The notes under the pieces were generated by a model. The model saw only the letters and a program-made list of their open reading frames with translations. It searched no databases and had not been told where the DNA came from. The translations under genes and the position numbers were made by a program. Positions 7,499 through 48,452 of a DNA stretch of 64,000 nucleotides are shown piece by piece (within the stretch, counting starts at the first letter, position 1; each line of letters opens with the position of its first letter). The stretch comes from Clostridia bacterium (GTDB lineage: Bacteria; Bacillota; Clostridia; Oscillospirales; UBA644): contig JAFRTE010000019.1 of NCBI GenBank assembly GCA_017427285.1, positions 1 through 64,000 on the forward strand, read 5' to 3'.

Positions 7499-7535
7499 AA
7501 TGATAAAGGATTTTTATTTTCGGGAGGCGAAAGAT

Positions 7536-11480: not shown

Positions 11481-11545
11481 AAGGCGTATAACTTAATTAA
11501 GCGAAAAATACGCTTAGTGTTAAATCTAATTTGGAGGATTGTACT

Positions 11546-14029: not shown

Positions 14030-14051
14030 TTGATTTAATCTGATATTCCTT

Positions 14052-14115: not shown

Positions 14116-14245
14116 TTGATTATATCCGAAACAGTATGGACTGACGTAATATTTATCGTAAAATTACGGTATTATTAATTCTGCCCACACTGTTTTGGAT
14201 GTAATCGGATATTTAAAAGAGAAAACTGAATGGAGCTTGGGTGAA

Positions 14246-15205
14246 ATGGTAAAATATACCATAAAAAGAATTCTTTTGATGTTCTTCACATTGTTTGTTA
14301 TCATGACAATGTGCTTTGTCCTTATCAAACTCCTTCCGCTTCCTGCGGTAAAGGAAATGGGCAAAGATATAAACATCATTCTTATGAAACGTGAACAGAT
14401 GGGTTACGGCAAACCGATACCCGTCCAGTACGGTATATTCCTTAAAAACGTTTTAACGAAGTGGGACTGGGGAGTAGGGGAACAGATGTATGAGACCCTC
14501 GGAATATGGGATGTTTTGATGAAAAAACTTCCGTATACCATTATGGTAAACCTCTACTCTATACTTATAGCGATACCGATAGGTCTCGGTTTCGGTATAT
14601 ATGCTGCTTTGAAGAAAAACAAATGGCAGGATCACGTTATCTCCACCGCCGTTATGATCTTCATTTCCGTCCCGTCATATGTTTACGCCTTCCTTGTACA
14701 GTATTTTCTCTGCTTCAAGGCGGGTCTTTTCCCGATAACCATTCCATCCGGTGAAACAGCGTCGCTATTCAGCGTTAAAATGTTTGTCAGCATGATGCCC
14801 GCCGTTATTTCTCTCGGTTTCGGCGTTATAGCCAATCTTGCACGTTATACAAGAGCCGAACTTTCAGAGGTATTGACCGGCGATTACATGCTTCTTGCAC
14901 GTACCAAAGGTCTTACAAAAGCTCAGGCGACCGCACGTCACGCTATGAGAAACGCTATGGTCGTTATTTTACCAATGATAATCGGTGAATTCCTCGGAAT
15001 TATTTACGGTTCACTTATTATCGAAAAAATATTTGCTATTCCTGGCGTCGGAGACCTTTATATCAGCTCCATAAACCTTCGTGACTATAACTTCTTTATG
15101 GCTCTCACTTTCTTCTATACGTTTATCGGTCTTGCATCCGGTATTCTTATGGATATCAGCTACGGATTCATCGATCCGAGAATCAGAATGGGGGCGAAGA
15201 AATAA
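14246..15205 (+). CDS. oppB: Oligopeptide ABC transporter permease OppB
   Basis: A BPD-type inner-membrane permease of about 319 residues with six hydrophobic segments. It starts VKYTIKRILLMFFTLFVI as OppB/DppB proteins do. The conserved cytoplasmic loop that contacts the ATPase is seen as YTRAELSEVLTGDYMLLART (EAA-type motif). The frame is open from ATG 14195, but the 17 extra residues are hydrophilic and atypical, so I prefer ATG 14246; the ribosome binding site is weak for either. Unlike the other subunits of this operon it has normal family length. Its TAA overlaps the oppC ATG by one base. Confidence 0.93.
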   Translation: MVKYTIKRILLMFFTLFVIMTMCFVLIKLLPLPAVKEMGKDINIILMKREQMGYGKPIPVQYGIFLKNVLTKWDWGVGEQMYETLGIWDVLMKKLPYTIMVNLYSILIAIPIGLGFGIYAALKKNKWQDHVISTAVMIFISVPSYVYAFLVQYFLCFKAGLFPITIPSGETASLFSVKMFVSMMPAVISLGFGVIANLARYTRAELSEVLTGDYMLLARTKGLTKAQATARHAMRNAMVVILPMIIGEFLGIIYGSLIIEKIFAIPGVGDLYISSINLRDYNFFMALTFFYTFIGLASGILMDISYGFIDPRIRMGAKK

Positions 15206-16743
15206 TGCAGAATAACGAATATATGTCAATACCGAAAGAGAAATTCGAATTTGCTCCCGTCGGTGAAAAAATATACGATAAAAAGCTCGAAACGAAGCCA
15301 ATCGGCTATTTTAAAGATGCCTGGATCCGTTTCTGCAAAAACAAAAGCTCCGTTGTTGCGGCGATCATCATTTTAATCCTTGTGTTGTTCGCAATAATCG
15401 TTCCCATTTTCTCTCCGTATACGGTAGACCACCGCGACGGGTACTACAAAACCGTTCTTCCCAAGTCAGAGCTTTTCGCTCCACTCGGCATCTGGGACGG
15501 TACATTTACAAAAACAGATACGCCCGCCGGTTATCTTTACTATAAGTCGATCGGTGTCGAAAGCGGACGCAATGCCGTTATAGGCGAAGGAAAACTCGGT
15601 AAGGATACCGACGGCAACGATTATTACACGTTTAAGGTCGATTCATACAACACTGTCGGCTACGTATTTGTAAACCTCACTCAAAACGAGTATATCGCTC
15701 TTCAGCAGTATCAGGATGAAAATGAAGTTCAGATCATATACCCGATGCCTGAAAACTACAAAACAAATTACACGATCGGCAATGCGGGCGCAAACTTCTG
15801 GTATAAACTGAAAAACGATAAAGCAACTTCCACAGGCGAACCCGTTCTCGATAAAGACGGCAATTATATCCCTAATTACATAACAAGCTCAAATAAAGAC
15901 CGCGGCGACTACATAAGCAAAATGCGCTTACCCACAGATACCGGCGAAAACGGCAAATGGTTCACATACGCCGTTAAAAACCAGACAGGTTATAAAGTCC
16001 GCGTTCTTTACCGCGAATATTATATCTACAAAAACGGTCACGAACCGTCGTTCCTGTTCGGCACAAACGCTTACGGTCAGGATATTTTCACCTGTCTTGC
16101 GGCAGGTGCGAGACTGTCTTTTCTGCTAGCGGTTTTTGTCTCCGTTATCAACCTTACGATCGGCGCACTCTACGGTTCCGTAGAAGGTTATTACGGCGGC
16201 GCAGTCGATATAATTCTTGAACGTATAAGCGACATCCTCGCTTCCGTTCCGTTTATAGTCGTTGTTACGCTGTTTAAACTTCATTTGGCGGATAAGGTCG
16301 GAGCATTGCCTTCATTGCTCTTTGCGTTCGTTATGACGGGCTGGGTCGGAATGGCTTCGAGAGTCCGTTTGCAGTTCTACCGCTTCAAGGGCCATGAATA
16401 TATCCTTGCCGCAAGAACGCTCGGTGCAAAAGACGGCAGACTTATGTTCAAGCATATTTTCCCGAACTCTATCGGTACTATCATCACAGGCGCCGTTCTT
16501 ACAATTCCCGGCGTTATTTTCTCGGAATCGTCGCTTTCATATTTAGGTATTATAAATCTCGAAACGTCTTCTCTTACGTCGGTAGGTACAATGCTTGCTC
16601 AGGGACAGGGCTATTTGCAGACATTCCCGCATATCATTCTTTTCCCGGCAGTATTTATCTCGCTTCTTGAGATTTCGTTCAACTTATTCGGCAACGGATT
16701 GCGCGATGCGTTCAACCCGTCGCTGCGCGGAGTGGAGGAATAA
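15205..16743 (+). CDS. oppC: Oligopeptide ABC transporter permease OppC with large extracytoplasmic insertion
   Basis: A BPD-type permease of 512 residues, about 200 longer than usual OppC. An N-terminal cytoplasmic tail and first membrane segment (about residues 48-70, VVAAIIILILVLFAIIVPIF) lead to SPYTVDHRDGYY, and only about residue 280 does the family resume with FLFGTNAYGQDIFTCLAAGA. The intervening ~200 hydrophilic residues must lie outside the cell, rich in Tyr, Asn, Lys and Gly. The remaining five helices and the EAA loop (GHEYILAARTLGA) are ordinary. It pairs with OppB to form the channel. Confidence 0.92.
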   Translation: MQNNEYMSIPKEKFEFAPVGEKIYDKKLETKPIGYFKDAWIRFCKNKSSVVAAIIILILVLFAIIVPIFSPYTVDHRDGYYKTVLPKSELFAPLGIWDGTFTKTDTPAGYLYYKSIGVESGRNAVIGEGKLGKDTDGNDYYTFKVDSYNTVGYVFVNLTQNEYIALQQYQDENEVQIIYPMPENYKTNYTIGNAGANFWYKLKNDKATSTGEPVLDKDGNYIPNYITSSNKDRGDYISKMRLPTDTGENGKWFTYAVKNQTGYKVRVLYREYYIYKNGHEPSFLFGTNAYGQDIFTCLAAGARLSFLLAVFVSVINLTIGALYGSVEGYYGGAVDIILERISDILASVPFIVVVTLFKLHLADKVGALPSLLFAFVMTGWVGMASRVRLQFYRFKGHEYILAARTLGAKDGRLMFKHIFPNSIGTIITGAVLTIPGVIFSESSLSYLGIINLETSSLTSVGTMLAQGQGYLQTFPHIILFPAVFISLLEISFNLFGNGLRDAFNPSLRGVEE

Positions 16744-16746
16744 ATT

Positions 16747-18915
16747 ATGGCAAACAAATTGGAAGTCAGAAATTTAAGAATCTCTTTCCGCACCGTATCA
16801 GGCAAACTTCAGGCAGTAAGAGATATCTCGTTTGATTTAAAAGACGGCGAAACTCTCGCTATCGTCGGCGAATCCGGCTCGGGTAAATCCGTTACTTCAA
16901 AAGCCATTCTCGGTATTCTTGCAGGAAATGCGATTATCGACGGCGGCGAGATCATTTACGACGGCAGAGACCTTCTGAAAATCCCCGAAGACGAATTTTA
17001 CAAGATCCGCGGCGACAAGATCGCCATGATTTTCCAGGATCCGCTTTCAAGTCTTAACCCGATTATGAGGATAGGCAAACAGCTTACGGAAGCTATGATC
17101 CTCAAAGGCAAAGCGCGCCAGAAATCATGCAGAAAGGCGTTTAACGAATATCTTGCCCGCCTCGAAAAGGCAATGATCAAATCAAACGCCGCAAACGACC
17201 CCGAAAAAGCCAGAAGCATTTCGGAAAAGTGCAAAAATTTCGATAAATTCGAAGGTACTCATCTTAAACTTGAAACCGCTTATAACAGTGCTGTAAACAA
17301 CGCAAACGAAGCAATTGCGGAAATCGAAAACGCGCTCTTCCTTATTGAGAAAAACGCGTTTAAAGATGAGAAAAACATTATTTCAAACATCTGCGAGCTT
17401 TCTCTCGGCACCGTAAACGACTATGTCGTATCTGATGATTCGGCTGAGCTTCACACTCTTGTTTCTTCTCTTAAAACCGCCGCTTCCGCTTCTAAAAAGT
17501 CCGGTAATTATGACGAAGTAACCGCAAATCTCAATAAGATCAACGAAATTCTCAAAGCGGCTATCGCAAAAGAGATGCCTAACTTCTTCTCGATGGGCTA
17601 TTACCTTACTTTCTCGGGCGAACCGCTTCCCGATCTTCCAGTTTCCGAGCTCAATCAATTTCTCCGCAAGTATCTCGACGACAACTATATGCTCGAGTTT
17701 ATCGAGTATGTAGAGAATGCTTTGCGCGATTCAGCAAAAGAGCATCTTGTCAAAAAGGAAGCAGTTGTAAAAGAGCTTAAAGAATCTCTTAATACTTTCA
17801 GGGCAGACGTATATTCTCGTCCCGAAATCGATACGCTCGTAAACAAGCTCGTAAAAGACGTTCATGACTCCATAGACCCCATGGAAATTAACAGAGACAG
17901 CACGGCGTATACTTTCGAATCAAGTCTTCGCAGCGCGGTTGAGGTCTATTTCAACGGTGAAAAACAGAATGTAGTTGAAACGAAACGTTACGAAAAACAG
18001 AAAGCAAGTTACGACAGAAAAGCCGCAAGGGCAGGGGGTGAACTGTCATGGAAAGTCACACCTGCCGCGATAGTCGATTTACAGCTCGCAAAAGATAATA
18101 TCTGCACGATCATTATTCGTCTTACGGAACATTACGAAGAGCTCCTTGCTCAGAAAGATCAGCGCGATTACGGTGAAGAAGCCGTTGCGGTAATAGATTA
18201 TCTTAAATTGAACGCGTCCGGTTTCGCAAATAAAGTTACGCGTCGTTTGGCAAAGCTTCGCGCGCTCAAACTTATGGAAGAAGTCGGTATCCCCGAACCG
18301 AGAAAGAGATACAGACAGTATCCGTTCGAGTTCTCGGGCGGTATGAGACAGCGTATAGTTATCGCTATCGCGCTTGCCGCAAACCCCGATATCCTTATCT
18401 GCGACGAACCTACGACCGCGCTCGACGTTACCATTCAGGCGCAGATACTCGAGCTTATCAACAAGCTCAAAAAAGAAAGAAATCTTTCTATTATCTTCAT
18501 AACTCACGACCTCGGCGTTGTTGCGAATATGGCAGATAAGATCGCCGTAATGTATGCGGGTAAAATCGTTGAATATGGTACTTCAAGAGACGTATTCTAT
18601 TCTCCCGCACATCCGTATACATGGGCGCTCCTGTCTTCTATGCCGGACCTCGATACAAACGAGAAGCTCGAAGCAATACCGGGTACTCCGCCGAATATGA
18701 TCTATCCTCCCGTTGGCGATGCTTTTGCCGAAAGAAATAAATTTGCTTTAAAGATCGACTTTGAAAAACAGCCTCCTATGTTCCGCATAAGCGATACTCA
18801 CAGCGCGGCAACATGGTTGCTCCATCCCGATGCGCCGCATGTCGATCCGCCCAAGATCGTCACCGAACGTATAGCAAGAAGCAAAAAGAATGCAGGAGGT
18901 GACAGCAATGGCTGA
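16747..18915 (+). CDS. oppD: Oligopeptide ABC transporter ATPase OppD with ~380-residue insertion
   Basis: At 722 residues it is twice the normal OppD length. Walker A GESGSGKS (41-48) and Q-loop FQDPLSSLNP (about 96-105) are followed by an insertion from about residue 122 to 505. The family then resumes with LMEEVGIPEPRKRY, signature FSGGMRQR (529-536), Walker B ILICDEP (Asp553, Glu554), switch His587 and the C-terminal oligopeptide-type extension (HPYTWALLSSMPDL, IPGTPPN). The insertion is charged and mostly helical, with Lys/Glu-rich stretches that could form coiled coils; it interrupts the helical subdomain after the Q-loop. All catalytic motifs are intact, so the ATPase should work. GTGGAGGAATAAATT precedes the ATG. 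Confidence 0.9.
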   Translation: MANKLEVRNLRISFRTVSGKLQAVRDISFDLKDGETLAIVGESGSGKSVTSKAILGILAGNAIIDGGEIIYDGRDLLKIPEDEFYKIRGDKIAMIFQDPLSSLNPIMRIGKQLTEAMILKGKARQKSCRKAFNEYLARLEKAMIKSNAANDPEKARSISEKCKNFDKFEGTHLKLETAYNSAVNNANEAIAEIENALFLIEKNAFKDEKNIISNICELSLGTVNDYVVSDDSAELHTLVSSLKTAASASKKSGNYDEVTANLNKINEILKAAIAKEMPNFFSMGYYLTFSGEPLPDLPVSELNQFLRKYLDDNYMLEFIEYVENALRDSAKEHLVKKEAVVKELKESLNTFRADVYSRPEIDTLVNKLVKDVHDSIDPMEINRDSTAYTFESSLRSAVEVYFNGEKQNVVETKRYEKQKASYDRKAARAGGELSWKVTPAAIVDLQLAKDNICTIIIRLTEHYEELLAQKDQRDYGEEAVAVIDYLKLNASGFANKVTRRLAKLRALKLMEEVGIPEPRKRYRQYPFEFSGGMRQRIVIAIALAANPDILICDEPTTALDVTIQAQILELINKLKKERNLSIIFITHDLGVVANMADKIAVMYAGKIVEYGTSRDVFYSPAHPYTWALLSSMPDLDTNEKLEAIPGTPPNMIYPPVGDAFAERNKFALKIDFEKQPPMFRISDTHSAATWLLHPDAPHVDPPKIVTERIARSKKNAGGDSNG

Positions 18916-20032
18916 GCTTAACAAACAGGTAACTCCTTCCAACGATGACAATGTCCTTCTCAGAGTCGAAAATCTCTCTCAGCATTTCGGAGAACTCAAA
19001 GCCGTAGACAACGTATCCTTTGATATTAAAAAGGGCGAAGTTTTCGGGCTTGTAGGTGAGTCCGGATGCGGAAAAACAACGACCGGAAGATCGATCATCA
19101 AACTTTACAATATTACATCCGGCAGCATTTATTTTAAAGGACAAAGAATAGGCGCAGGCACTCTTTCTTATAAAAATGCCATTAAAGACGCCAAAAAGAA
19201 ATTCAAAGATGAAGTTGCCGAACTCAAAAACAGCGATGACCCGGATAAAGCCGCTGTAATTGCTGAAAAAAAGGCGGAGCTTGGCAAACTTATTTCCGAT
19301 ATGCGCAAGCAGATAGCGTCCGCCAAATACGACAACAGTCACGTTGACAAGGACCTTATCACCCAGATCCAGATGATCTTCCAGGACCCCATCGCTTCTC
19401 TCGACCCGCGTATGACGGTCAGAGAAATCATTTCCGAAGGTCTTGTGATTAAGGGAATGAAAGATAAAAAACAGATCGACGAAATGGTTTACGATGTTCT
19501 CGAAACTGTCGGACTTGTCAGAGAGCATGCCGGAAGATACCCTCACGAATTTTCAGGAGGACAGAGACAGCGTATAGGCGTTGCGCGTTCCGTTATTATG
19601 AAACCGGAGCTGATAATTGCCGATGAACCGGTTTCCGCTCTTGACGTTTCTATTCAGGCGCAGGTCATCAATCTTCTTAACGACCTTCGCCATGATCTCG
19701 GTATTACCATTCTGTTCGTTGCTCACGACCTTTCAGTCGTTAAATATTTTTCGGACAGGATCGGCGTAATGTATTTCGGCAAACTTGTTGAACTTGCAGA
19801 TTCGGATGAGCTTTTCAAGCACCCGCTCCATCCGTATACTCGTTCGCTTCTTTCCGCCATACCGCTTCCAGACCCGGACTATGAAAAGAACAGAAAACGT
19901 ATTACCTACGTTCCGCTGCGCGACCACGACTATTCGGTTGAACAGCCGACTTTCAGAGAAGTTTCTCCAAATCATTTTGTCCTCTGCTCCGACAGCGAAG
20001 AAGAGAAATACCGCAGTATTATCGGAGGTTAA
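18908..20032 (+). CDS. oppF: Oligopeptide ABC transporter ATPase OppF with ~60-residue insertion
   Basis: A 374-residue ABC ATPase: Walker A GESGCGKT (50-57), Q-loop FQDPIASLDP (about 158-167), signature FSGGQRQR, Walker B LIIADEP, switch His in VAHDLSV and the OppF-type C-terminus (HPYTRSLLSAIPLPDP). Between the Walker A subdomain and the Q-loop lies a charged, probably helical insertion (about residues 84-145, Lys/Glu/Asp-rich) that ordinary OppF lacks. ATG 18908 has AGGAGG just before it and overlaps the oppD stop as ATGGCTGA, so translation is coupled. It is expected to form the ATPase heterodimer with OppD. Confidence 0.92.
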   Translation: MAELNKQVTPSNDDNVLLRVENLSQHFGELKAVDNVSFDIKKGEVFGLVGESGCGKTTTGRSIIKLYNITSGSIYFKGQRIGAGTLSYKNAIKDAKKKFKDEVAELKNSDDPDKAAVIAEKKAELGKLISDMRKQIASAKYDNSHVDKDLITQIQMIFQDPIASLDPRMTVREIISEGLVIKGMKDKKQIDEMVYDVLETVGLVREHAGRYPHEFSGGQRQRIGVARSVIMKPELIIADEPVSALDVSIQAQVINLLNDLRHDLGITILFVAHDLSVVKYFSDRIGVMYFGKLVELADSDELFKHPLHPYTRSLLSAIPLPDPDYEKNRKRITYVPLRDHDYSVEQPTFREVSPNHFVLCSDSEEEKYRSIIGG

Positions 20033-20440: not shown

Positions 20441-20475
20441 AGGCACAAGGTTTAGTTTTAAACCTTGTGCCTTTT
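20441..20475. terminator. Strong bidirectional terminator after the opp operon and the esterase operon
   Basis: A 13-bp stem AGGCACAAGGTTT / AAACCTTGTGCCT with a 6-nt loop (20441-20472) is followed by TTTT. It lies between convergent operons; on the minus strand the stem is followed by GATTTTATTT. Confidence 0.9.
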
Positions 20476-20489
20476 AAATTTAAGTATTC

Positions 20490-21266
20490 TCAAAGCCATC
20501 CCATATCGGTAAACCAGTTTTTCAAAAGCCCTGTCCATTGCGCAACGTGCGGCATTCCCGCAGCGATATCAAGTCCGTGAGGCCCGTCCGGAAAAATGTG
20601 CATTTCGTGCAAAATGTTATGCTTTCTAAGCGCCGTTGCGTATAAATAGCTGTTTATTACGCTTACTCCGCCGTCATTCGAGGTATGCCAGATAAAAGCT
20701 TTGGGCGTATTGCTGTCAACAAGCAGATCGGGTGATAATTCTCTGTGTTCCTTTTCGTCTCCCGTCAGATTGTAATAGCTTCCTTTATGGCAACATTCGT
20801 CGTCGGGGTGATGGATTACGGGATAGCAAAGTATAGTTGCGTTCGGTATGGGCGACATTCCGTCGATCTCATCAGCACCTTCAAAATCTATCGCTTCTTT
20901 ATAAGTTGAAACAAGCGCCGCAAGATGTCCGCCTGCTGATGAACCCATTACGGCGATTTTGTCTGGATCGACGCCTAACTTTTCAGCGTGATATCTAACG
21001 TACCGTACAGCGCGCCTGGCGTCGAGCAGAGGAATGGGAAATCTGTACGGCGCGACTCTGTATTCGCATACATAAGCGTCCATCCCTATCGAATTAAGAA
21101 ATACCGCATAGCCGTCTCCTTCTTTCGGAGCTCTTCCGCCGTATCCTCCGCCGGGGAAAACTACTACCGCAGCGTCGGTAGCTTTATTTTTTGCGGGATA
21201 ATATTCAAGTACGGGCGTTTCACCGTTAAGTGCAGGTACGTTTTCCCATAAGTCAAGTACTTTCAT
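20490..21266 (-). CDS. Alpha/beta-hydrolase, probable acetylxylan/feruloyl-type carbohydrate esterase
   Basis: A 258-residue alpha/beta-hydrolase. The oxyanion-hole loop VVFPGGGYGG, nucleophile elbow GSSAGGH (Ser110) and catalytic His in PDGPHGLD are clear; the acid is probably in HTSNDGG. No signal peptide is visible, so it should be cytoplasmic. It is the last gene of a four-gene operon with a metallo-beta-lactamase-fold protein, a CE15-like esterase and a GH3 enzyme, which points to removal of acyl groups from imported glycan fragments. The exact substrate is an inference. Confidence 0.82.
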   Translation of the reverse strand: MKVLDLWENVPALNGETPVLEYYPAKNKATDAAVVVFPGGGYGGRAPKEGDGYAVFLNSIGMDAYVCEYRVAPYRFPIPLLDARRAVRYVRYHAEKLGVDPDKIAVMGSSAGGHLAALVSTYKEAIDFEGADEIDGMSPIPNATILCYPVIHHPDDECCHKGSYYNLTGDEKEHRELSPDLLVDSNTPKAFIWHTSNDGGVSVINSYLYATALRKHNILHEMHIFPDGPHGLDIAAGMPHVAQWTGLLKNWFTDMGWL

Positions 21267-21278
21267 AACTAAGCTCCT

Positions 21279-22592
21279 TTATACTTTGTGTTTATGGCTC
21301 CAGCTCATATCAAATTCTTTTCCGATAACAGGGAAAGACGCAGTTTTTACAAATCCGTTTTTTGTCGCTTCAAATTCATAAGTAGCGTCGCCGTTGTAAT
21401 ATACCTGATTTTCCTTTGTATACTTTAACACCTCGCGCAGTTTATGAATATTGTCGTATGCGTGAGCTCCGTAAAATCTGTTCGGCACGGAAGCGACGGG
21501 AGCGCTTATCCACTCGTACATTTTCGGCAGATTGTTGAAGCAGTGGTGCGCGACTTGAACCATTTCCGCTTTCCAAAGCTCAGGATTTCCGTATTTTTCG
21601 GTAAATTCTTCCGCTTCGCTCGATGTGTCTCCAAGAAGCATAAATCTTTGACCGTTGATCGTCAGTTTAACGATCGTTGAAGTCGAGTTAAAGTCTCTCA
21701 GAGGCCAGAAGTCGAGCGCATCCGCGCTTATCATGTCTTCGGCGGCATAAAGGACTTCTACGGTCATATCGGAAAGACTGAATTTCTGTCCGGTATGCAT
21801 TTTAAGCGTTTTAACGTCGGGATAATACTCTGAAACCGCTTCCTTCATATCAAGGTAGGCAGGAGAAAATCCTCTGCATATACTGCGTGACTGAAAACCG
21901 TGCATTACTCTTTCAAGGATGATCTTATCGTGAAAACGGTCGAGAATTCTCGTGCAGCCGTCTGTGTGGTCGTCATGTCCGTGAGTAAAATACCAGCAGC
22001 TGATCCTAATTTTACCGTCTTCCCGCTTATCGGCAAGGTCATACATAAATTTAAAAAGTGCGTCGTTTGCCTCTTTGCTGTGCTGAAAAACATATCCTCC
22101 GTCAACTACAAACAGACTTCCGTCCGAAAGTCTTACGATATAAACCATTCCGCAGTTTATCGTGTTTATTCCGCCTCCGTTTGCGGGGTCATAATACAGA
22201 CCGTAGGCATAAAGCAAGGTTTTTCTGTCGCCCGTATCGGAATATGCAAACCGGTCAAGCGAGAGCGGAGACTGATCTTCAATGATCCGTATCTCGCTAC
22301 GTTTTGCCCAATATACCGCATGATATTGCTTATTGTTGTATTCAAATCCGATACATCTGTCATCGACCATTGAATTTTCAAGATATATCCTTGCGCCGCT
22401 TGATTTGATTTTTTCAATGTACTTTTCAAAATCCTCTTTTTTAACGCTGCAGACTATCTGCATTCTGGAATCCTCATCTGTCGGACCGTTTGTGTCGTCT
22501 TTAAGCATCGGTCCGGAATTGTAATATCCTTTTGCAATTATTTTGCCGTCCGGCATCGGACAGGCGATAATCTGATTTTCTTTCATATCCAT
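21279..22592 (-). CDS. Metallo-beta-lactamase-fold hydrolase
   Basis: A 437-residue protein. An N-terminal ~130-residue region without a recognised domain precedes a metallo-beta-lactamase fold with the metal motif YFTHGHDDHTDG (H-x-H-x-D-H) and further ligands in MLLGDTSSEA and VAHHC. The frame extends to a TTG at 22616, but ATG 22592 has AAGGA seven nt upstream. It lacks a signal peptide. Its place in the GH3/CE15 operon suggests hydrolysis of a carbohydrate ester or lactone, but the family is too broad to name a substrate. Confidence 0.8.
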   Translation of the reverse strand: MDMKENQIIACPMPDGKIIAKGYYNSGPMLKDDTNGPTDEDSRMQIVCSVKKEDFEKYIEKIKSSGARIYLENSMVDDRCIGFEYNNKQYHAVYWAKRSEIRIIEDQSPLSLDRFAYSDTGDRKTLLYAYGLYYDPANGGGINTINCGMVYIVRLSDGSLFVVDGGYVFQHSKEANDALFKFMYDLADKREDGKIRISCWYFTHGHDDHTDGCTRILDRFHDKIILERVMHGFQSRSICRGFSPAYLDMKEAVSEYYPDVKTLKMHTGQKFSLSDMTVEVLYAAEDMISADALDFWPLRDFNSTSTIVKLTINGQRFMLLGDTSSEAEEFTEKYGNPELWKAEMVQVAHHCFNNLPKMYEWISAPVASVPNRFYGAHAYDNIHKLREVLKYTKENQVYYNGDATYEFEATKNGFVKTASFPVIGKEFDMSWSHKHKV

Positions 22593-22635
22593 TTCAGTAT
22601 CCTTAATACGGTTCAAAAATATAATTTCGGATGAT

Positions 22636-23664
22636 TTAATCGTCCTGGTTTATATAACTGATATAATTGTGCCAGTCTTCACGTCCGAAAAAGTGGGTTC
22701 CGCTGCGCATGTGGTACCCTATATCTCCCTCGTGGAAACGGTCTCCTACGGTCGGCAGTCTGTCTGGGTGAACAAAGCCCTCTTTACCGAGTTTTTTGTA
22801 GTATCCGTCAGCTGCAACGCACGCAAGATATTCGTTTTTCGGACATGCCCATCCGTCTTCTGCGGCGCTTGCTACGTATACTTTATGCGGAGCGTTTGCC
22901 GCAATAAGCCAATGCTGGTCAAAAGGCAGGCTTTCAACATTTTCCTGGTATTTTTTGTAGTTTTCGCAAAACCAGTAGGGGAACGTTGTGCAGATATTCT
23001 TTATCGTTTCGCCGGTAGTCTCTCTTGCAAGAGCGGCGCCGCTGCAGCCGGAATCGTTTGAAAACGCACAATAAAAGCGTTTATCGAGCGCTCCCGCAAG
23101 CAGAGCGGTCTTTCCTAAGCGCGAGTGTCCCGCTACGGATATCTTTTTATGGTCAAGTTCCGGCAAAGTTAAAGCATAATCCATAACCGCCATCGCGGAC
23201 CATGCCCAGAGCCCGATCTTTCCGCAGTCATCGTTTTCTCTGACCCCGTCGGGATATACAACGCCTGCAAACTTATCCGTAAAATCATCATTATCCGCAG
23301 TAATATCCTGATAATAAACGGTTAATATTGCATATCCGTTATCGATTATCTCTTCCGTCGGCTGATATTTGTCGGGAATAAGATCGCGGAAGTTTAAGTG
23401 TATAAAGCAAGGGATCGATGTTCCGATTTTTGGGGCGGCATAATAAACGGGAAAAGTAAATTCTCCCCATTCGCCCTTGCAGCAAAGAGATATCTTTTTG
23501 AGCGACGCTTTGCCTGCGGCAAAATTATTGTCATTCTGTTCAACAGTCGCCGTAACGGAATACGGTCTTGCTGGTAAAAATCCGTATTCCTCTTTCAAAA
23601 GCATAGTTATAATTTCGTCTTTTCTGAAATTTACAGGATCGGGCAGATTGTTTATCATTTCCAT
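22636..23664 (-). CDS. CE15-like glucuronoyl esterase family alpha/beta-hydrolase
   Basis: A 342-residue alpha/beta-hydrolase with the nucleophile motif GHSRLGK (Ser181), matching the SRxGK signature of carbohydrate esterase family 15, and the conserved HW after it (FDQHWLIA). NDSGCSGAAL and the C-terminal GTHFFGREDW (probable catalytic His) also fit. Family members cleave 4-O-methyl-glucuronoyl esters linking xylan to lignin and are usually secreted; this one begins MEMINNLPDPVNFRKDE with no signal peptide. It lies 21 nt downstream of the GH3 gene, with GGAG before its ATG. Confidence 0.8.
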   Translation of the reverse strand: MEMINNLPDPVNFRKDEIITMLLKEEYGFLPARPYSVTATVEQNDNNFAAGKASLKKISLCCKGEWGEFTFPVYYAAPKIGTSIPCFIHLNFRDLIPDKYQPTEEIIDNGYAILTVYYQDITADNDDFTDKFAGVVYPDGVRENDDCGKIGLWAWSAMAVMDYALTLPELDHKKISVAGHSRLGKTALLAGALDKRFYCAFSNDSGCSGAALARETTGETIKNICTTFPYWFCENYKKYQENVESLPFDQHWLIAANAPHKVYVASAAEDGWACPKNEYLACVAADGYYKKLGKEGFVHPDRLPTVGDRFHEGDIGYHMRSGTHFFGREDWHNYISYINQDD

Positions 23665-23685
23665 AACCTTATTCTCCTTGTCATT

Positions 23686-26274
23686 CTATTTAACTATCCA
23701 GAAATCCGACTGTAACGGTAAATCGGCAGAAGATCCGCCTATCATCACTCTCATCTGACCAGGTTCTACTACCCACTGATATTTCGGATTCAGAGTTCTG
23801 AAAGCAAGCGTGCCAAGCTCTTTTTCAACAGTTTTCGTCTCTCCCGGTTCGAGGTGGATTCTTTCGCATTCTTTAAGCTCCATTCCGGGCTTTACAACAG
23901 ACGCAAAATAGTCTTTTATGTAAACCTGACAAACTTCTTCTCCGGCAACGTCTCCCGTATTCGTGATTTTAAACGATACTTTGAGAGTTTCATCGGGTTT
24001 GATGGCGTCTGATGAAAGCTTGAGGTCGGAATACCTGAAAGTCGTATACGAAAGACCGTAGCCGAACGGGAAGAGGGGACTTCTGTCAAATCCTTCAACG
24101 TACCGTTTTCCGCCTGCGGGTTTTCTGCTGTAATGTACGGGGATCTGTCCGAGCGTTTTCGGGAAAGAACATGAGAGTTTTCCTGATGGATTTACGTTGC
24201 CGAAAAGTACGTCCGCGATCGCCTTTCCGCCGAGTTCGCCCGCAAAGAACGCCTGGACTATTGCGGGAATATGCTCGTTTTCCCATGTCAGCGTCATCGG
24301 ACGTCCGCTTTGCAATACAAGCACGATCGGTGTGCCGGTCGCATATACGGCTTTGAGAAAATCAAGCTGTTTTCCCGGGAGATTCAGGTCGCAGCGGTCA
24401 AAGTTTTCGCCCGTTGTTATCTGATCCTTGTCACCGAGCGATAAGATCGCAACGTCCGCGCCCTTTACCGCTTCAAGCGCTTCGTTTATATCTGCCGGTT
24501 TTCCCCTCCAGCCGAGAATAACTGCAGCGCCGCGTTCGTCGTTTCTGTATTCTATTTTTATGTTGTATCTCTTTTTCTCAAATTTAAACGGAGCAAGCAC
24601 ATCCGTGCCTCTTCTGTCGCCCCATGCGTCAACAACAAGCTTGTCGTCGACCCACAGTTTGATACTGTCGCGGCAGTTAAATCCGATAAATGCGTCTTCA
24701 TCGATTTTCGATTCGATTACGCCTGTCCAGCGTGCAGAAAACTGTGCGTCAACGTTTCCCGCCGCTTTTTCCGCAATAAAGCTGAAATCTATCGCTCTGT
24801 CGTCTCTTATAAGCACGGGTTCGCCCGTCGGTTCAATGGAATTGTTGAAATATTCGCCTTTGAGCTCCACATACCAGTCGTTCGGAATACGTTTCAGCGT
24901 AAGCTCTTTAAAGTCGCATCCTTTTGCGTAAACAACCTCCGTTTTGTCTCCAACGATTTCTTTTATTGACGAATACAGAGTTATTTTATCGTATGTTTCA
25001 TCCGATACGCTGTAATCTCCGAAATTCAGAATGTTTGCCGAAGGACCGAGCACGGCGATTTTCTTCATTCCCTTTTTAAGAGGAAGAAGCTTGTTTTCGT
25101 TTTTCAGAAGAGTTATCGACTTTGAGGCGATTTTATACGCAAGATCCTTATGTTCTTTACAATGCAATACTTTATCCTGAAGCGTTTCGTCAACATATGG
25201 GTCGTCAAACAGACCGAGATCGAATTTCGTCCTCAATACTCTGCTTACCGCACGGTCAAGAGTTTCAAGCGGCAAAAGACCTCTTTTTACGTAATCAACT
25301 ATCGTACTCTGATAAAAATCATGAGGGAAATCGTGAAGCTGTACGTCTGTTCCCGCTTCAAGTGCCATCCTTATTGCTTCCTCTCTCGAGTCGGCAACGT
25401 TATGGTCGCAGTTGAGCATTGAAATCGCGCACATGTCGGAACGAACAAATCCTCTCATGCCCCACTGTCCGCGCAATACGTCCGTAAGAAGTTCATGGTC
25501 CGAGGGAAGGGGCTGTCCGTCTATCGAGCTGTAAGAACACATTACGTTATATGCTCCCGCGTCTTTAACTGCCGCTTCAAAAACGGGCTGACAGTATTCA
25601 AATACCTCATGTCTGCCAAGAGCGGCTACGGCACAGTTCAGTCCTCCTACGGGTACTCCGTATGCCGTATAATGCTTAAGCTCGGAAATTACCTTGTCGG
25701 GCCTTGAAACGTCGTCTCCCTGAAGTCCTCTTACTATATGATATGCAAATCTGGACGAAAGATAAGTGTCTTCGCCGAAGTTTTCTTCAGTTCTGCCCCA
25801 TCTGGGCTCTCTTGCCAGGTCGCATACGGGGTTCCACGTCTCCTGCACTCCGCACGCGCGTTCTTCTCTTGCGATCGCTTCACCCATTTCTTCACCGAGG
25901 GACGGGTCAAAAGTGCATCCGAGCGCTATCTGCTGCGGAAAAACGGTCGCGCCGACGCGGCAGTAGCCGTGAAGGGCTTCGCTGCAGAATAAAACGGGTA
26001 TTCCGAGTCTTGTGTTTTCAATCACGTATCTCTGGATCTCGTTATAAAGCTTTGCTGAGCTTCTTCCGAGACCGGCATTTCCGTATGCGTTGTTTCCCAT
26101 CAGCTTCAGCTTTTCGTAGTCAACCTTTAATTCTCCCGTTTCTTTGTCTTGCATACAGAAATCGGAAGGCGAATACTGATCGATCTGTCTAGCCTTCTCC
26201 TCAAGCGTCATTCTCGAAATAAGATCCGCTATCCTCTCGTTTACGGGCAGCGATTTGTCTTTATATTTTTCCAT
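23686..26274 (-). CDS. GH3 beta-glucosidase/beta-xylosidase with PA14 domain
   Basis: An 862-residue glycoside hydrolase family 3 protein. The N-terminal barrel has KHYTAYG (200-206) and the nucleophile Asp280 in GFVRSDMCAIS. The second domain holds KNENKLLPLKK and GDKDQITTGENFDRCDL. A PA14-like insertion (about residues 466-600) sits between them, and an Fn3-like domain (GEEVCQVYIKDY) ends the protein. No signal peptide is visible, so it should act in the cytoplasm on imported oligosaccharides. It is the first gene of the operon. Whether the unit removed is glucose, xylose or another sugar cannot be told from sequence. Confidence 0.92.
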   Translation of the reverse strand: MEKYKDKSLPVNERIADLISRMTLEEKARQIDQYSPSDFCMQDKETGELKVDYEKLKLMGNNAYGNAGLGRSSAKLYNEIQRYVIENTRLGIPVLFCSEALHGYCRVGATVFPQQIALGCTFDPSLGEEMGEAIAREERACGVQETWNPVCDLAREPRWGRTEENFGEDTYLSSRFAYHIVRGLQGDDVSRPDKVISELKHYTAYGVPVGGLNCAVAALGRHEVFEYCQPVFEAAVKDAGAYNVMCSYSSIDGQPLPSDHELLTDVLRGQWGMRGFVRSDMCAISMLNCDHNVADSREEAIRMALEAGTDVQLHDFPHDFYQSTIVDYVKRGLLPLETLDRAVSRVLRTKFDLGLFDDPYVDETLQDKVLHCKEHKDLAYKIASKSITLLKNENKLLPLKKGMKKIAVLGPSANILNFGDYSVSDETYDKITLYSSIKEIVGDKTEVVYAKGCDFKELTLKRIPNDWYVELKGEYFNNSIEPTGEPVLIRDDRAIDFSFIAEKAAGNVDAQFSARWTGVIESKIDEDAFIGFNCRDSIKLWVDDKLVVDAWGDRRGTDVLAPFKFEKKRYNIKIEYRNDERGAAVILGWRGKPADINEALEAVKGADVAILSLGDKDQITTGENFDRCDLNLPGKQLDFLKAVYATGTPIVLVLQSGRPMTLTWENEHIPAIVQAFFAGELGGKAIADVLFGNVNPSGKLSCSFPKTLGQIPVHYSRKPAGGKRYVEGFDRSPLFPFGYGLSYTTFRYSDLKLSSDAIKPDETLKVSFKITNTGDVAGEEVCQVYIKDYFASVVKPGMELKECERIHLEPGETKTVEKELGTLAFRTLNPKYQWVVEPGQMRVMIGGSSADLPLQSDFWIVK

Positions 26275-26313: not shown

Positions 26314-26342
26314 ATAATAACACAGATTTTTACCGTTGTCAA
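26314..26342 (-). promoter_or_regulatory. Promoter of the GH3-CE15-MBL-esterase operon
   Basis: Minus-strand TTGACA (26342-26337), 17-bp spacer, TATTAT (26319-26314). It starts just after the MATE terminator. Confidence 0.8.
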
Positions 26343-26356: not shown

Positions 26357-26381
26357 GCTCCGCAAATTAATTTTACGGAGC
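26357..26381 (-). terminator. Terminator of the MATE gene
   Basis: A 10-bp stem, read on the minus strand as GCTCCGTAAA / TTTGCGGAGC with one G-U pair, is followed by TTTTGATTTT. It separates the MATE gene from the GH3 operon on the same strand. Confidence 0.8.
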
Positions 26382-26388: not shown

Positions 26389-27783
26389 TCAGTTGTCTTT
26401 TATTATATTTTTAGCCCAAATACCGGATTTCAGCATCGGCAGGCCTATCATGATCTTGATAATATCCGAAAACTGTACGATAAAATAGATCGTTACAATG
26501 CTTAGCGACGTAAACCTGCAAAGAAAAAACGAAATAACAACGGGTACGCACCATGTATAAACACTGTCAAACAAAAACGTTATAAAAGTCCGTCCGCCCG
26601 AGCGTATCGTAAAATACGTTGCGTGAATAAGCGCATGAATGGGAAGCGACGCTCCCGCTATTATCAGAAAACTTGTAGCCAGCTGCCTTACGTCGGCTTC
26701 GGTGTTGTAAATAAGCGGAATAAACGGAGATATCGCTATCAGCAAAAGTCCGATAACCGTGTTTGACGCGACCGTCAGGAATATAAGCTTTCTGTCCGCA
26801 TCTCTCGCTTCCTCCGTTTTGCCCGCGCCGAGCTTTTGTCCTACCATTATCGCGATCGCGCTTCCCATCGAAAACATTATTATGCAAAACATGCTCCAGA
26901 CGGTTGACGATATATTGCTCGCCGCAACTACGGAAAGACCTCTTGTTGAATAATTCTGATTAACGAAAGTCGTGCCCATTGACCAGAGCACTTCATTTAT
27001 CAGCAGGGGCGTTCCCTTCCTGAATATTTTGAATACAAGAAAAGAGGGGACTTTCAACGACCTGTAGACACCTTGAATGAAGATGTGTTTATCGCGGTTT
27101 TTATGAGTATATACTATAATATAGACCATTTCAACAAATCTTGCAATTACCGTAGCTATCGCAGCGCCCACAACGCCCATTGCCGGTATAAACAGAAAAC
27201 CGAAAATAAGTACAATGTTAAGCACGAAATTTACGGCAATCGAAATAACGGAAGCGATCATCGGCGCTACTGTATCGCCCGCTTCGCGTAAAGTGCTCGT
27301 ATAGACCTGCACGATCATAAACGGAAAAAGTCCTATGATCGCAACGGAAAGGTAGTCGAGCGCAAAATGGAGCGTAACGGAAACGTCTATGTCAACGTTT
27401 GCCTCATTGTCAAGAAAAAGCATTATCAGACTGCTACCGAATACAGCAAAAACGGCTGTCGCCGCAATGCTCGTAACAATACCGAAAATCATCTTGAAAC
27501 GGAAAGTATTTCTTACGCCTTCATTGTCTCCTACGCCGAAAAACTGAGCGCCGAAAATCGAAGCGCCCGAGATCCCGCCGAAAATCGTAAGATTAAATAT
27601 GAATATTATCTGATTTACTATCGCTACGCCGCTCATCGGCTCCGTGCCGAGAGACCCGACCATTACATTGTCCAGCAGATTTACTATATTCGTTATTCCT
27701 TGCTGTATTATAATCGGTATGATCAGGCGTATAACGGATCTGTAAAAAGCTTTATCGCCTAAATATTTCTTTTTAAAGCTCAT
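26389..27783 (-). CDS. MATE-family multidrug/cation antiporter
   Basis: A 464-residue membrane protein with about 12 hydrophobic segments in two homologous halves, the fold of MATE exporters (IIIQQGITNIVNLLDNVMVG; FGVGDNEGVRNTFR; VGQKLGAGKTEEARDA in the second half). The frame is open to 27930, but those 49 extra residues run over the divergent AraC gene and look non-coding; ATG 27783 gives the normal N-terminus MSFKKKYLGDKAFYRSV. The gene is transcribed divergently from the AraC regulator with only about 60 bp between them, so that regulator may control it. The exported compound is unknown. Confidence 0.9.
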   Translation of the reverse strand: MSFKKKYLGDKAFYRSVIRLIIPIIIQQGITNIVNLLDNVMVGSLGTEPMSGVAIVNQIIFIFNLTIFGGISGASIFGAQFFGVGDNEGVRNTFRFKMIFGIVTSIAATAVFAVFGSSLIMLFLDNEANVDIDVSVTLHFALDYLSVAIIGLFPFMIVQVYTSTLREAGDTVAPMIASVISIAVNFVLNIVLIFGFLFIPAMGVVGAAIATVIARFVEMVYIIVYTHKNRDKHIFIQGVYRSLKVPSFLVFKIFRKGTPLLINEVLWSMGTTFVNQNYSTRGLSVVAASNISSTVWSMFCIIMFSMGSAIAIMVGQKLGAGKTEEARDADRKLIFLTVASNTVIGLLLIAISPFIPLIYNTEADVRQLATSFLIIAGASLPIHALIHATYFTIRSGGRTFITFLFDSVYTWCVPVVISFFLCRFTSLSIVTIYFIVQFSDIIKIMIGLPMLKSGIWAKNIIKDN

Positions 27784-27800
27784 AAAAACAGTTTTTCCTC

Positions 27801-27829
27801 TTGATTTTTTTATGACAATGATATATAAT
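27801..27829 (+). promoter_or_regulatory. Promoter of the AraC-family gene
   Basis: TTGATT (27801-27806), 17-bp spacer, TATAAT (27824-27829). The predicted start site near 27836 leaves a leader of only about 10 nt before ATG 27846, which is unusually short. Confidence 0.7.
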
Positions 27830-27845
27830 AATGTCGGAGAGTGTG

Positions 27846-28706
27846 ATGAATATGGGTGCAAACAAACGAAAAATAATGACTGGCACGGAACTTGCAGGAT
27901 GGGGGGTCCCGCTTCTTGCCATGTATGCAAATCTTTCTTCGGAGCCCGTCCTTCAAAATCACGACCACGGAGAATTATTTGAAATCTGTTATTTGAAACG
28001 CGGAATGCAAAAATATTTTATCGGAAACGAAGAATATAATCTTCGCGGAGGGGATGTTTTTATAACGTTTCCAAACGAAATCCATTCTTCCGGCGATAAC
28101 CCGCAGTCCCGCGGATGCCTTTATTGGATTCATATAGACAGCACTTCAAGCTGCCTCCTCGGGCTTGATAAAGACAGCTCGGATACTCTCATTAAATATT
28201 TGTATTCCATAAAAAACAGAAAATTCCGTATTCGCGACGACGTAGCGTCGGGGCTTATAAACGCCTGCGAAATGATCGAAAAAGGCGAAAAACTCGAAAT
28301 AATCGTTGCCAGAGCGATGCTTGTTGAATTTCTTTACGAGCTTATAAACTCAGAAAACTGTCAGGAAAACCGAAACATCGTCTCCGATCCGATCGCGGAA
28401 GCAAAAATATATATCGACGAAAACATCAAGGAACAGCTCAGTCTTGCCTCCGTTGCGGACAGGGTAGGGTTTTCGCTTTCGCATTTCAAATATAAATTCA
28501 CCAAAGAAACAGGTATGACGCCGGGCGAATACATAATGCAAAAGAAAATTTACGATTCCGTATCTCTTCTTCCCGACAGATCGCTTACTTATATCGCTTA
28601 CGAATACAATTTTTCTTCGCCTCAGCACTATTCCAAAAACTTTAAAGCGGTTACGGGAATGACTCCGAAAGAATACAGAAACAAATTGAAGAATCGCACC
28701 AAATAG
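27846..28706 (+). CDS. AraC-family transcriptional regulator
   Basis: A 286-residue regulator with an N-terminal cupin-like sensor domain (HDHGELFEICYLKRG; LRGGDVFITFPNEIHSS) and a C-terminal double helix-turn-helix (LSLASVADRVGFSLSHFKYK; SLTYIAYEYNFSSPQHYSKN; final MTPKEYRN). GGAG at 27835-27838 favours ATG 27846 over 27831. Cupin-AraC proteins of gut Clostridia commonly sense sugars and activate glycan genes. It is surrounded by a GH3/CE15 operon, a MATE exporter and a sialidase-fold gene; which of them it controls is not shown by the sequence. Confidence 0.9.
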   Translation: MNMGANKRKIMTGTELAGWGVPLLAMYANLSSEPVLQNHDHGELFEICYLKRGMQKYFIGNEEYNLRGGDVFITFPNEIHSSGDNPQSRGCLYWIHIDSTSSCLLGLDKDSSDTLIKYLYSIKNRKFRIRDDVASGLINACEMIEKGEKLEIIVARAMLVEFLYELINSENCQENRNIVSDPIAEAKIYIDENIKEQLSLASVADRVGFSLSHFKYKFTKETGMTPGEYIMQKKIYDSVSLLPDRSLTYIAYEYNFSSPQHYSKNFKAVTGMTPKEYRNKLKNRTK

Positions 28707-28776: not shown

Positions 28777-30594
28777 TCAAGTTATTCTTGCCGTAAATAC
28801 AGAAAAAACAGTGTATTTCCTTTCTTCTGTCGGTAAATCACAGTTTTCAATATCCGGTATAATCGGCCTTACGTCTGTCCCGGGCGCCGATCTGTGCGGT
28901 TTTGTTCTGAATATCAAACGTGAAACGGAATTAACTTTTTGTATATTTCTGATTTTTCCCGCTTTTTTCCCGTCTATAAACACTTCCGTTTCGCATAAAA
29001 CGCAGTCCTGCTCAAAAGACAGTGTATGCTTGTTTTCGTCAAAATCGTGAATATACTGCTTTATCGATGTATTCCTTCCGAAAACCCGTCCTTTTTCGAT
29101 ATAAAACCTTTCACATACGATCCCGTTGCTATCGGCAAGCTCAATTTCAAGAGCGCTGTCGTATCTGCTGCACTGCAATTCGATATCGCAACGGAATTTT
29201 TCGCACTCAGGAAAATTAAGCTCGGCAATGGCATAGTCAAGAGGGTCTTTATCGGTAATAACCATAGCCGTCCCGACGTTTTCCGCTTTTGCCCACTTGG
29301 ACGAATATATATTCCACGGCTCGAGATAGCGGTTGTTTTCGAAATTTCCTCCGAAAAATTCGTCTGCTTCGCTTTTTACGGGAACCGGTATCCTGCTTAC
29401 CCATATATCCTCTTTATTTACACTGTATGTAAGCCATACCGCGTCAGACGGTTTTTCTGCGTTTTCCTCGCATATCCCGCGAATATACTGCGGACCGTAA
29501 TCCTTGTTCAGCCCTTCGTATCTTCTGGGCGGTACTTCTCCGAAAACAGCCGCAATATCATCAAATTCGATCCCGTTTTCCGATGTTACACTCACAAGAG
29601 GATATCTGTGTTCGCTCGATATGCTGTTGATGTAGAACAAAGCAAATTTCCCGTCGGAGGTTTTTTCTCCCCACGCCTTTGCTCCCGTTGTAACAAACGA
29701 CGGTTCTTTTTTTATCAGCCAGTTTTCGCCGTTGTCAAACGATATCCCCGTTATACCGTGCTTCCAGAGGGCAACGACGGTATCTTTGTTGATATGATAT
29801 CTTGTAAACGCCTGATATGGCTTGTTGTCGCTTCTTCCGTAAACTTCACAGTGTGTTTTAAGCGCAACATATTCGCAGTCGTTTCCGTGTTCTTCAGCCC
29901 ATTGCTGCGTTTCGAATTTGTCCTTTAAAAGCGCGTTGCATGCGTTGATAAAGCCCGAATCTTCCGACTTGCCGTATTCGGGGTAGGGCAGGGACGCTTC
30001 ATTCCACCCCGATGACCTCATAATGTATATGAAGTATATCGGGCCTAACGTTCCGTCTCTGTATACTTCTCTTACGACGCGTCCGAGCCCGTTGTTCTCC
30101 CACGGAACGGCATGGTCGGGCGAATATCCGTAAAATCCCGTTGTGAGCAGTCTTCCGTTCGGCGCGGAATAAAACGCTGTTCGCTGGTGCATTACTGCAT
30201 ACGTGTTTTCCGGAATACGGATAACGGCTCCGTCCTTGCAGATATTTTCTCCGTGCGGCAAAAGAACTTTCGGAAAAGAAACGGTTGGCTTTTCCCATGC
30301 AATGCCGTCTTTCGATCGCGCAATAAACGATATTCCGCCCGGCTCGTGCTCATCCTTTGGGTTGGATAAATACTGGACCCAGAAATACCCGAACCAGTAT
30401 GTCATATCAGGCGCATGATTGTACGTATAACCTGCGTCATCCGCCAATTCTGGATGATTTCTGTTTGCTCTCAGTATCTGATAACTCGAAACGCCTACGG
30501 TATGTTTGAGTCCGCCGTCGCTTTTGCTCAAATCGGCAAAAACTTTGCCTGTATACCTCGGAGTTTCGTTTTCGGACATTTTATATCCTGCCAT
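28777..30594 (-). CDS. Sialidase-fold (BNR/Asp-box) protein with C-terminal lectin-like domain
   Basis: A 605-residue protein without a signal peptide. The N-terminal ~400 residues look like a sialidase-type beta-propeller: an Asp-box SFDNGENW (S-x-D-x-G-x-x-W) and a related SKDGIAW are visible, as in sialidases and GH43-like enzymes. The C-terminal ~180 residues (SKWAKAENVGTAMVIT; CETEVFIDGKKAGKIR) suggest a concanavalin-like jelly roll. I could not place the arginine triad of true sialidases, so the activity is open. It starts 17 nt after the CPBP protease gene and GGAG precedes its ATG, so the pair is an operon. Confidence 0.7.
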   Translation of the reverse strand: MAGYKMSENETPRYTGKVFADLSKSDGGLKHTVGVSSYQILRANRNHPELADDAGYTYNHAPDMTYWFGYFWVQYLSNPKDEHEPGGISFIARSKDGIAWEKPTVSFPKVLLPHGENICKDGAVIRIPENTYAVMHQRTAFYSAPNGRLLTTGFYGYSPDHAVPWENNGLGRVVREVYRDGTLGPIYFIYIMRSSGWNEASLPYPEYGKSEDSGFINACNALLKDKFETQQWAEEHGNDCEYVALKTHCEVYGRSDNKPYQAFTRYHINKDTVVALWKHGITGISFDNGENWLIKKEPSFVTTGAKAWGEKTSDGKFALFYINSISSEHRYPLVSVTSENGIEFDDIAAVFGEVPPRRYEGLNKDYGPQYIRGICEENAEKPSDAVWLTYSVNKEDIWVSRIPVPVKSEADEFFGGNFENNRYLEPWNIYSSKWAKAENVGTAMVITDKDPLDYAIAELNFPECEKFRCDIELQCSRYDSALEIELADSNGIVCERFYIEKGRVFGRNTSIKQYIHDFDENKHTLSFEQDCVLCETEVFIDGKKAGKIRNIQKVNSVSRLIFRTKPHRSAPGTDVRPIIPDIENCDLPTEERKYTVFSVFTARIT

Positions 30595-48417: not shown

Positions 48418-48452
48418 ACAGAAAGGATATTAACGCATGTCGGAGGCAACTT

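Follow-up and report, generated by a model that had tools for sequence, protein, structure and literature searches.

A four-gene Clostridial operon combining GH3, CE15 and acetyl-esterase-type enzymes with a candidate Pce-like metal hydrolase

Introduction

Several described systems provide reference points for a set of four adjacent genes in an uncultured gut bacterium of the class Clostridia (Oscillospirales lineage UBA644). In glucuronoyl esterases of carbohydrate esterase family 15 (CE15) a conserved Lys, Glu and Trp bind the uronate. Pce (CbpE) and ComEC, which share a metallo-β-lactamase (MBL) domain, both cleave diesters, and Pce was used as the modelling basis for the ComEC MBL domain, as described in PMC5031224. 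For the pectic polysaccharide rhamnogalacturonan II (RG-II), PMC7939467 gives 6-O-methyl galacturonic acid (GalA) and glucuronic acid (GlcA) as the substrate of the methylesterase BT1017, and describes reports of methyl esters on the backbone GalA and the side-chain A GlcA, and of acetyl groups on side chain B. The four genes occupy positions 20490-26274 of the first 64,000 nucleotides (forward strand) of contig JAFRTE010000019.1, assembly GCA_017427285.1, hereafter the window. They encode a GH3 glycoside hydrolase with a PA14 insert, a CE15 enzyme, an MBL-fold protein and an α/β-hydrolase esterase.

The unit structure of the locus, the families of its products, their conserved active-site residues and, by hydropathy, the lack of an export signal are apparent from sequence. 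We regard as evenly poised the reading that the operon completes, in the cytoplasm, the breakdown of plant oligosaccharides or glycosides that are imported with their decorations, with a pectic (RG-II-like) source likelier and lignin-bound glucuronoxylan not the likely one. In such a pathway the esterase would remove acetyl groups, the CE15 enzyme would cleave the ester that a uronic acid forms at C6 with methyl or another alcohol, leaving a free carboxylate, and the MBL enzyme would take off a further group whose linkage is of the diester type, most likely a phosphodiester. With the β-linked terminal sugar exposed, the GH3 enzyme would then release it.

A conserved transcription unit

The genes follow one another in the order GH3, CE15, MBL, esterase with gaps of 21, 19 and 12 bases. 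A promoter scan placed a TTGACA-17-TATTAT element ∼40 bases upstream of the GH3 gene, and terminator-like hairpins were found on both flanks of the set (Table 1). Such scans are weak alone, with 22 promoter-like sites against 14.1 (s.d. 3.8) in shuffled sequence and 14 terminator-like sites against 9.4 (s.d. 3.5), and the case for a transcription unit therefore rests on conservation. In an alignment of the interval between the MATE transporter gene and the GH3 gene from five species, the hairpin stem displays paired changes (judged by eye, not by a covariation test), and beyond it TTGACA is invariant and is followed by TATTAT and a ribosome site; the hairpin/promoter/ribosome-site block upstream of the GH3 gene is thus kept in all five. 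The four genes are therefore predicted to constitute a single transcription unit that has a conserved promoter and terminator of its own. The locus is genuine and its limits are clear. As the conserved hairpin and promoter lie between the MATE and GH3 genes, MATE most likely belongs to another unit, and its candidacy as the first gene of the operon was ruled out on the same grounds. A preliminary description, made from the window alone, had proposed four cotranscribed genes of these families. The open reading frames (ORFs), all on the minus strand, were confirmed, and cotranscription is supported by the short gaps, the terminator and the promoter conserved in five species.

The four-gene order is present in five of the ten genomes of the genus that were examined (G000, G007, G008, G012 and G013). 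As far as these loci were fetched, it belongs in each to a syntenic island that also contains the MATE gene, an AraC-type regulator, a BT1020-like gene and a convergent ABC importer.

The proteins encoded by the unit look cytoplasmic. With a hydropathy heuristic rather than a dedicated signal-peptide predictor, the peak 11-residue value within the first 45 residues was 0.66 for GH3, 0.47 for CE15, 0.79 for MBL and 1.35 for the esterase, whereas five proteins of the window that are clearly exported gave 2.63-3.30. Few extra open codons precede the starts, giving at most 869, 349 and 456 residues in all for GH3, CE15 and MBL, respectively. The preliminary description had likewise seen no signal peptide on any of the four, and the values support it.

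The GH3 protein and the esterase

The GH3 protein comprises the N- and C-terminal GH3 domains, an Fn3-like end and a PA14 insert at residues ∼474-591 (Pfam). Both catalytic domains are present, together with the Asp nucleophile and Glu acid/base motifs of GH3, by which D280 is the likely nucleophile and E623 the likely acid/base. The closest solved relatives, 7zb3 and 8c7f, are named β-xylosidase/xylosidase. None of the eight NCBIfam specificity models listed reached its cut-off, the protein scoring 535 bits against 666 for BglX and 522.6 against 1050 for xylosidase/arabinosidase. A second GH3 copy, 75% identical to the one in the operon, lies on another contig of the same genome, and a tandem pair in a congener (G011:C18:44412-49690) is 76% and 80% identical to it.

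The esterase belongs to the BD-FAE/Abhydrolase_3 group. Its top solved relative, 6a6o (E 6e-65), which we take to be the acetyl ester-xyloside hydrolase of Caldicellulosiruptor lactoaceticus, aligns with residues 5-257 of 258. The two proteins share the GxSxG, Asp and His motifs over this near-full-length alignment and differ in their operon partners. The motifs around S110, D198 and H230 are invariant in all five sequences aligned, its own included. The earlier suggestion that the CE15 gene is accompanied by further hydrolases thus holds, and an acetyl-esterase-type partner is supported.

The CE15 enzyme and its Clostridial branch

The CE15 protein matches the Pfam model GCE_fung (E 6e-26), and its top solved relative is OtCE15A (E 7e-57). 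The GHSRxGK signature, Ser-His-acid triad and oxyanion Arg (S181, R182, D270 and H324) are present, as are the uronate-binding K185, E219 and W272. All of S267, R268, K271, E305, D356, W358 and H408 of OtCE15A are therefore conserved (D270 corresponds to D356), while E290 is replaced with Asp (D204). Two possible positions for the catalytic acid have been described in CE15 (PMC11096219). In a set of 47 Clostridial CE15 ORFs the Ser, Arg and Lys are conserved throughout, E305, D356 and H408 in 46 and W358 in 42; the lone exception at E305, D356 and H408 is L135, an exported 893-aa protein. The position of E290 is occupied by Glu in 5, Asp in 16, Asn in 19 and other residues in 7. The near-invariance of D356 against the variability at E290 suggests that the acid at D356 is the likely triad member in these proteins.

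The ORFs derive from the window, three congeners, one further member of the family and, in a class sample (391 Clostridia genomes, 59 with a CE15 match at E 1e-15), 36 of the 58 other genomes. They were read in 45 of 46 loci, ORF picking having missed the CE15 gene of L053, and come mostly from best matches, so that the set leans towards the branch of the window's enzyme. Starts were placed at the first start codon in frame, leaving the N-termini of L114, L123, L128, L132 and L133 uncertain. In a tree with four characterised references only, from which the partial L122 was left out, the window's enzyme falls inside a group of 38 sequences that includes OtCE15A (support 0.974), a grouping in line with the preliminary description. 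It is thus a glucuronoyl-esterase-type enzyme by sequence, with putative activity on glucuronoate esters.

No N-terminal hydrophobic stretch was evident in 45 of the 47 ORFs, the exceptions being L135 and L114; in L114 the ORF probably starts too far upstream. By this measure 42 of 43 ORFs in the window's branch, and three of four in a distant branch (L048, L052, L135 and L137), look signal-less. A CE15 enzyme without a signal peptide, which had been thought exceptional, is therefore not unusual in this branch; since the relatives look signal-less too, any surprise at a cytoplasmic CE15 enzyme rests on the described members of the family, which are usually secreted. We found no report of this branch as cytoplasmic in the open-licence literature.

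The branch is also not coupled to α-glucuronidases. GH67 and GH115 were searched for in the window's genome (95.7% complete) and neither was found. Taking the CE15, GH67 and GH115 counts as one shared 391-genome sample, and leaving out sub-cut-off matches (GH67 in G326, GH115 in G244), 40 genomes with the window's branch include 4 with α-glucuronidases above cut-off, compared with 59 of 351 other genomes (Fisher p 0.36); for genomes with only the distant branch the count is 7 of 19 (p 0.02), and neither p value is corrected for kinship. Membership of the branch was set here by score (E ≤1e-50); in the tree, five of the ORFs so assigned fall narrowly outside the OtCE15A group. The association with GH67 and GH115 genes expected in the preliminary description thus did not materialize, leaving its lignin-xylan frame without support. 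A cytoplasmic-looking Clostridial branch uncoupled from α-glucuronidases makes a lignin-carbohydrate role unlikely to extend to the whole family. Compared with OtCE15A and its branch, the window's enzyme shares the catalytic Ser, His and Asp356, the oxyanion Arg, the glucuronate-binding residues and the tree group, and differs in the predicted lack of a signal peptide, the Asp at Glu290 and an operon without xylanase or α-glucuronidase.

The co-directional neighbours of other Clostridial CE15 genes (n=123) were considered as evidence for xylan and provided none, as no glycan family dominates among the 25 commonest of 162 Pfam families, a list in which single occurrences, for instance of GH67 or GH115, would not show. 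Among the most frequent are barrels of the xylose-isomerase type (6), oxidoreductases of the GFO/IDH/MocA family (5) and GDSL lipases (4); GH20, SASA esterase and CBM_4_9 each occur twice, and ten neighbours scanned singly contained no glycoside hydrolase. Importer components appear as BPD_transp_1 in six and SBP_bac_1 in two. The expected link with importers is thus borne out in part: importer genes occur near CE15 genes, but the family-5 ABC importer of the window, which adjoins the operon in the five syntenic genomes as far as fetched, is convergent with it and behind the terminator, and no importer lies inside the operon.

A Pce-like MBL-fold protein

The MBL protein scores 21.9 bits against the Pfam metallo-β-lactamase model, under its cut-off of 22.7, and the fold assignment consequently rests on a structure model (AlphaFold2, 19 sequences, mean predicted local distance difference test (pLDDT) score 90.7). 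The model displays an N-terminal α/β domain (∼30-125) followed by a Pce/ComEC-like MBL domain (128-440). The superfamily is identified by the fold, by HxHxDH and by later Asp and His ligands (H212, H214, D216, H217, D330 and H357/H358), accompanied by D308-x-N310-x-x-S313. The closest structures are the ComEC MBL domain (Z 24.1; 254 residues at 2.8 Å) and Pce (Z 23.5; 262-278 residues at 3.0-3.1 Å), with RNase J next (Z 18.0). Foldseek places ComEC and Pce at 2e-12 to 5e-11; the arylsulfatase 8gyg, fifth at E 1e-8, counts against exclusive kinship with these two. In a profile search Pce was the top solved sequence (E 2.5e-4), with THxHxDH, DxNSxS, GD and HH aligned. Pce is thus matched in fold and metal-site motifs and ComEC is equally close by fold. 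In ComEC the domain is joined to a competence membrane channel, whereas in the present protein of 445 residues Pfam matched no channel family at E 0.1.

As ComEC and Pce are both diester-cleaving, the protein, a putative two-metal hydrolase related to them, most likely targets a linkage of the phosphodiester type. The best reading is that of a Pce-like metal hydrolase, a new part of such an enzyme set. It shares the fold and the HxHxDH, DxNSxS, GD and HH motifs with Pce/CbpE and ComEC, and differs in its low identity (15-18%), its extra N-terminal domain, its predicted cytoplasmic location and, by Pfam, the lack of choline-binding repeats or a membrane channel. The proposal that the protein opens a lactone or cleaves an unusual ester is not favoured by these neighbours: no lactonase title appears among the 50 matches listed in the Z-scored comparison. 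On the other side, 2wyl/2wym, which we take to be the ascorbate-phosphate lactonase UlaG, occur in the Foldseek list at E ∼1e-6 and also count against exclusive kinship with ComEC and Pce. A role in a defence system was rejected, as the matches were weak and partial (LmuA, the best in PADLOC, E 9.5e-7 over residues 308-409; NCBIfam 6A-MBL, E 2e-4). The N-terminal domain modelled alone reached a pLDDT of 82.8, and neither Foldseek (best E 0.019) nor Z-scored structure comparison (best Z 8.0) found a confident known fold for it. The phage tail-protein family phrog_7043 matches the MBL core (E 2e-7), hinting at related phage-tail domains.

The family looks rare, occurring in 4 of the 391 class genomes, the window's own included (E 1e-25); two short peptide patterns located at least 19 loci in a collection of 84,980 species, and more are possible. 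Within the genus, nine of ten genomes have at least one copy in the company of glycan-active enzymes. In five it is part of the four-gene operon, in two (G006 and G011) it stands beside a BT1017-like 580-aa protein with a GH29 gene on the other strand, and in two (G005 and G010) it is fused in front of a GH36 α-galactosidase-type domain; the more distant copy in G009 has, by eye, no such neighbour. The first half of the 580-aa protein matches BT1017 (6goc) with E 3e-36. In the genus the MBL gene is thus adjoined by a uronate-ester esterase in two unrelated forms, CE15 in the operon and BT1017-like in two sister species. Three relatives (L049:8549-10954, L070:9395-11320 and L072:9857-11320) have lipoprotein-like starts by eye, and those of L049 and L070 carry long N-terminal extensions.

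Source of the substrate and role of the set

Two observations lead us to favour pectin, namely a homologue of a BT1020 module in the conserved island and the BT1017-like methylesterase beside the MBL gene in two sister species. Residues 11-575 of the 605-aa island protein match 27-582 of the 1108-residue chain of 5mqr (E 1e-116), that is, its first module only; 5mqr is deposited as a β-L-arabinobiosidase, and the matched region is BT_1020-like in Pfam. We regard 5mqr as the RG-II enzyme BT1020, an identity with which the Pfam name agrees; its first module is presumably the RG-II hydrolase acting on 3-deoxy-D-lyxo-heptulosaric acid (Dha). The locus resembles the Bacteroides thetaiotaomicron system in these two features and differs in its predicted intracellular location and in the use of CE15 instead of a BT1017-type esterase. 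RG-II-type pectic fragments are thus a somewhat better fit by sequence than xylan and the more likely source, the substrate itself being unproven. The main reading is further accompanied by a genome that encodes GH10, two GH43, five GH3, a GH29 relative and, by look only, a GH51. Several points weigh against this account. The BT1020 homologue is a unit separate from the operon, and GH3 enzymes are not known to take part in RG-II breakdown. In G006 and G011 the GH3 gene, present as two side-by-side copies, the CE15 gene and the MBL gene lie on different contigs, and in G011 the esterase gene is ∼7 kb from the MBL gene. Incomplete genomes (G005, G009 and G010; 84, 61 and 57% complete, respectively) gave no GH3 match at E 1e-150, no CE15 match in G009 and G010 and only a distant one in G005. 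As the set is dispersed in some genomes, the four enzymes need not act on one molecule; the four-gene set is a loose assembly, which weakens the claim of one shared substrate. PMC7939467 also leaves doubt over the GlcA methyl ester in the fragment studied there.

An alternative along the lines of the preliminary description is the import and finishing of esterified, acetylated aldouronic xylo-oligosaccharides, in which GH3 would be a β-xylosidase. The xylosidase names of the closest GH3 structures, the apparent identity of 6a6o and the one GH10 and two GH43 of the genome fit this idea, which we nevertheless judge unlikely because GH67 and GH115 were not found in the genome and are not enriched with the CE15 branch, and GH3 falls below the cut-offs of all eight NCBIfam models listed. 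The general outline of the preliminary description survives as reasonable, with an intracellular, cotranscribed and OtCE15A-grouped CE15 enzyme; its lignin-xylan frame and its lactone-opening MBL enzyme lack support. That the set deglycosylates small plant glycosides, such as saponins or flavonoids carrying a glucuronate methyl ester, with export of the aglycone by the MATE protein, appears distinctly improbable: the MATE gene is directly upstream in all five syntenic loci (as two ORFs in L035), and the barrels, oxidoreductases and lipases around other CE15 genes would suit such substrates, but the conserved hairpin and promoter part it from the operon and a glycoside substrate lacks direct evidence. 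The MBL protein might alternatively be a housekeeping or lipid/teichoic-type phosphodiesterase that shares the operon by chance. Pce acts on teichoic acid according to its PDB title, a diacylglycerol-kinase gene directly upstream of the relatives in L068 and L071 speaks for such a lipid or teichoic-type role and weighs against the glycan reading (L066 and L067 have look-alike genes), and beyond the genus the company is mixed, mostly without an evident glycan neighbour, with a GH4 gene nearby on the other strand in L063. The GH36 fusion in two species and the carbohydrate-esterase neighbours in seven make chance an unlikely explanation.

Under the preferred reading of cytoplasmic finishing, the MBL enzyme is the part of the locus most deserving of work: in one genus it keeps company with hydrolases and esterases of glycans, and it may target a decoration outside current models of glycan degradation. 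It might even found an undescribed class of cytoplasmic Pce-like enzymes that take diester-linked caps off imported oligosaccharides for a partner glycosidase (GH3 here, GH36 in the fusions), with esterases for uronate esters from two unrelated families (CE15 and BT1017-like) at their side, a proposal that we consider rather doubtful. No literature joining an MBL protein with a glycoside hydrolase and phosphocholine was found.

Flanking genes and other features

Table 1. Features of the window and of related loci. Positions refer to the window unless preceded by a locus label.
Feature	Position	Strand	Length	Remark
GH3-PA14 ORF	23686..26274	-	862 aa	Pfam and solved-structure searches
CE15 ORF	22636..23664	-	342 aa	Pfam and solved-structure searches
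MBL-fold ORF	21279..22616	-	445 aa	Pfam below cut-off, structure model
α/β-hydrolase esterase ORF	20490..21266	-	258 aa	Pfam and solved-structure searches
Promoter-like TTGACA-17-TATTAT	26314..26342	-		TG ahead of second hexamer; kept in 5/5 species aligned
Terminator-like hairpin	20441..20472	both	14 pairs	Between esterase and convergent DUF3899 gene; terminator scan
Terminator-like hairpin	26357..26381	-		Directly 3' of MATE gene, between MATE and operon; five-species alignment
MATE transporter	26389..27930	-		Start probably near 27783 by relatives
AraC-type regulator	27831..28706	+		Divergent from MATE
BT1020-module homologue	28777..30594	-	605 aa	5mqr match; shared conserved island, separate unit
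Family-5 solute-binding protein and four more ABC-importer genes	11531..20032	+		Convergent with operon
MBL-GH36 fusion, MBL N-terminal	L044:6890-10204; L043:3619-6918		1104 aa; 1099 aa	Two genus species
Protein directly before MBL gene	L039:7806-9548; L041:3038-4777		580 aa	First half like RG-II methylesterase BT1017
Diacylglycerol-kinase gene directly upstream of stand-alone MBL relative	L068:9071-9952; L071:9110-9991			Rumen Clostridia

The BT1020 first-module homologue shares the conserved island with the AraC-type regulator and has no signal peptide by hydropathy. In G013 the MATE gene appears as two ORFs (L035:2100-3595) and may be broken or misassembled. Elsewhere in the window, an α-amylase-type enzyme (7500-9521) and a GH35 β-galactosidase (48408-50201) both show no obvious signal peptide by eye.

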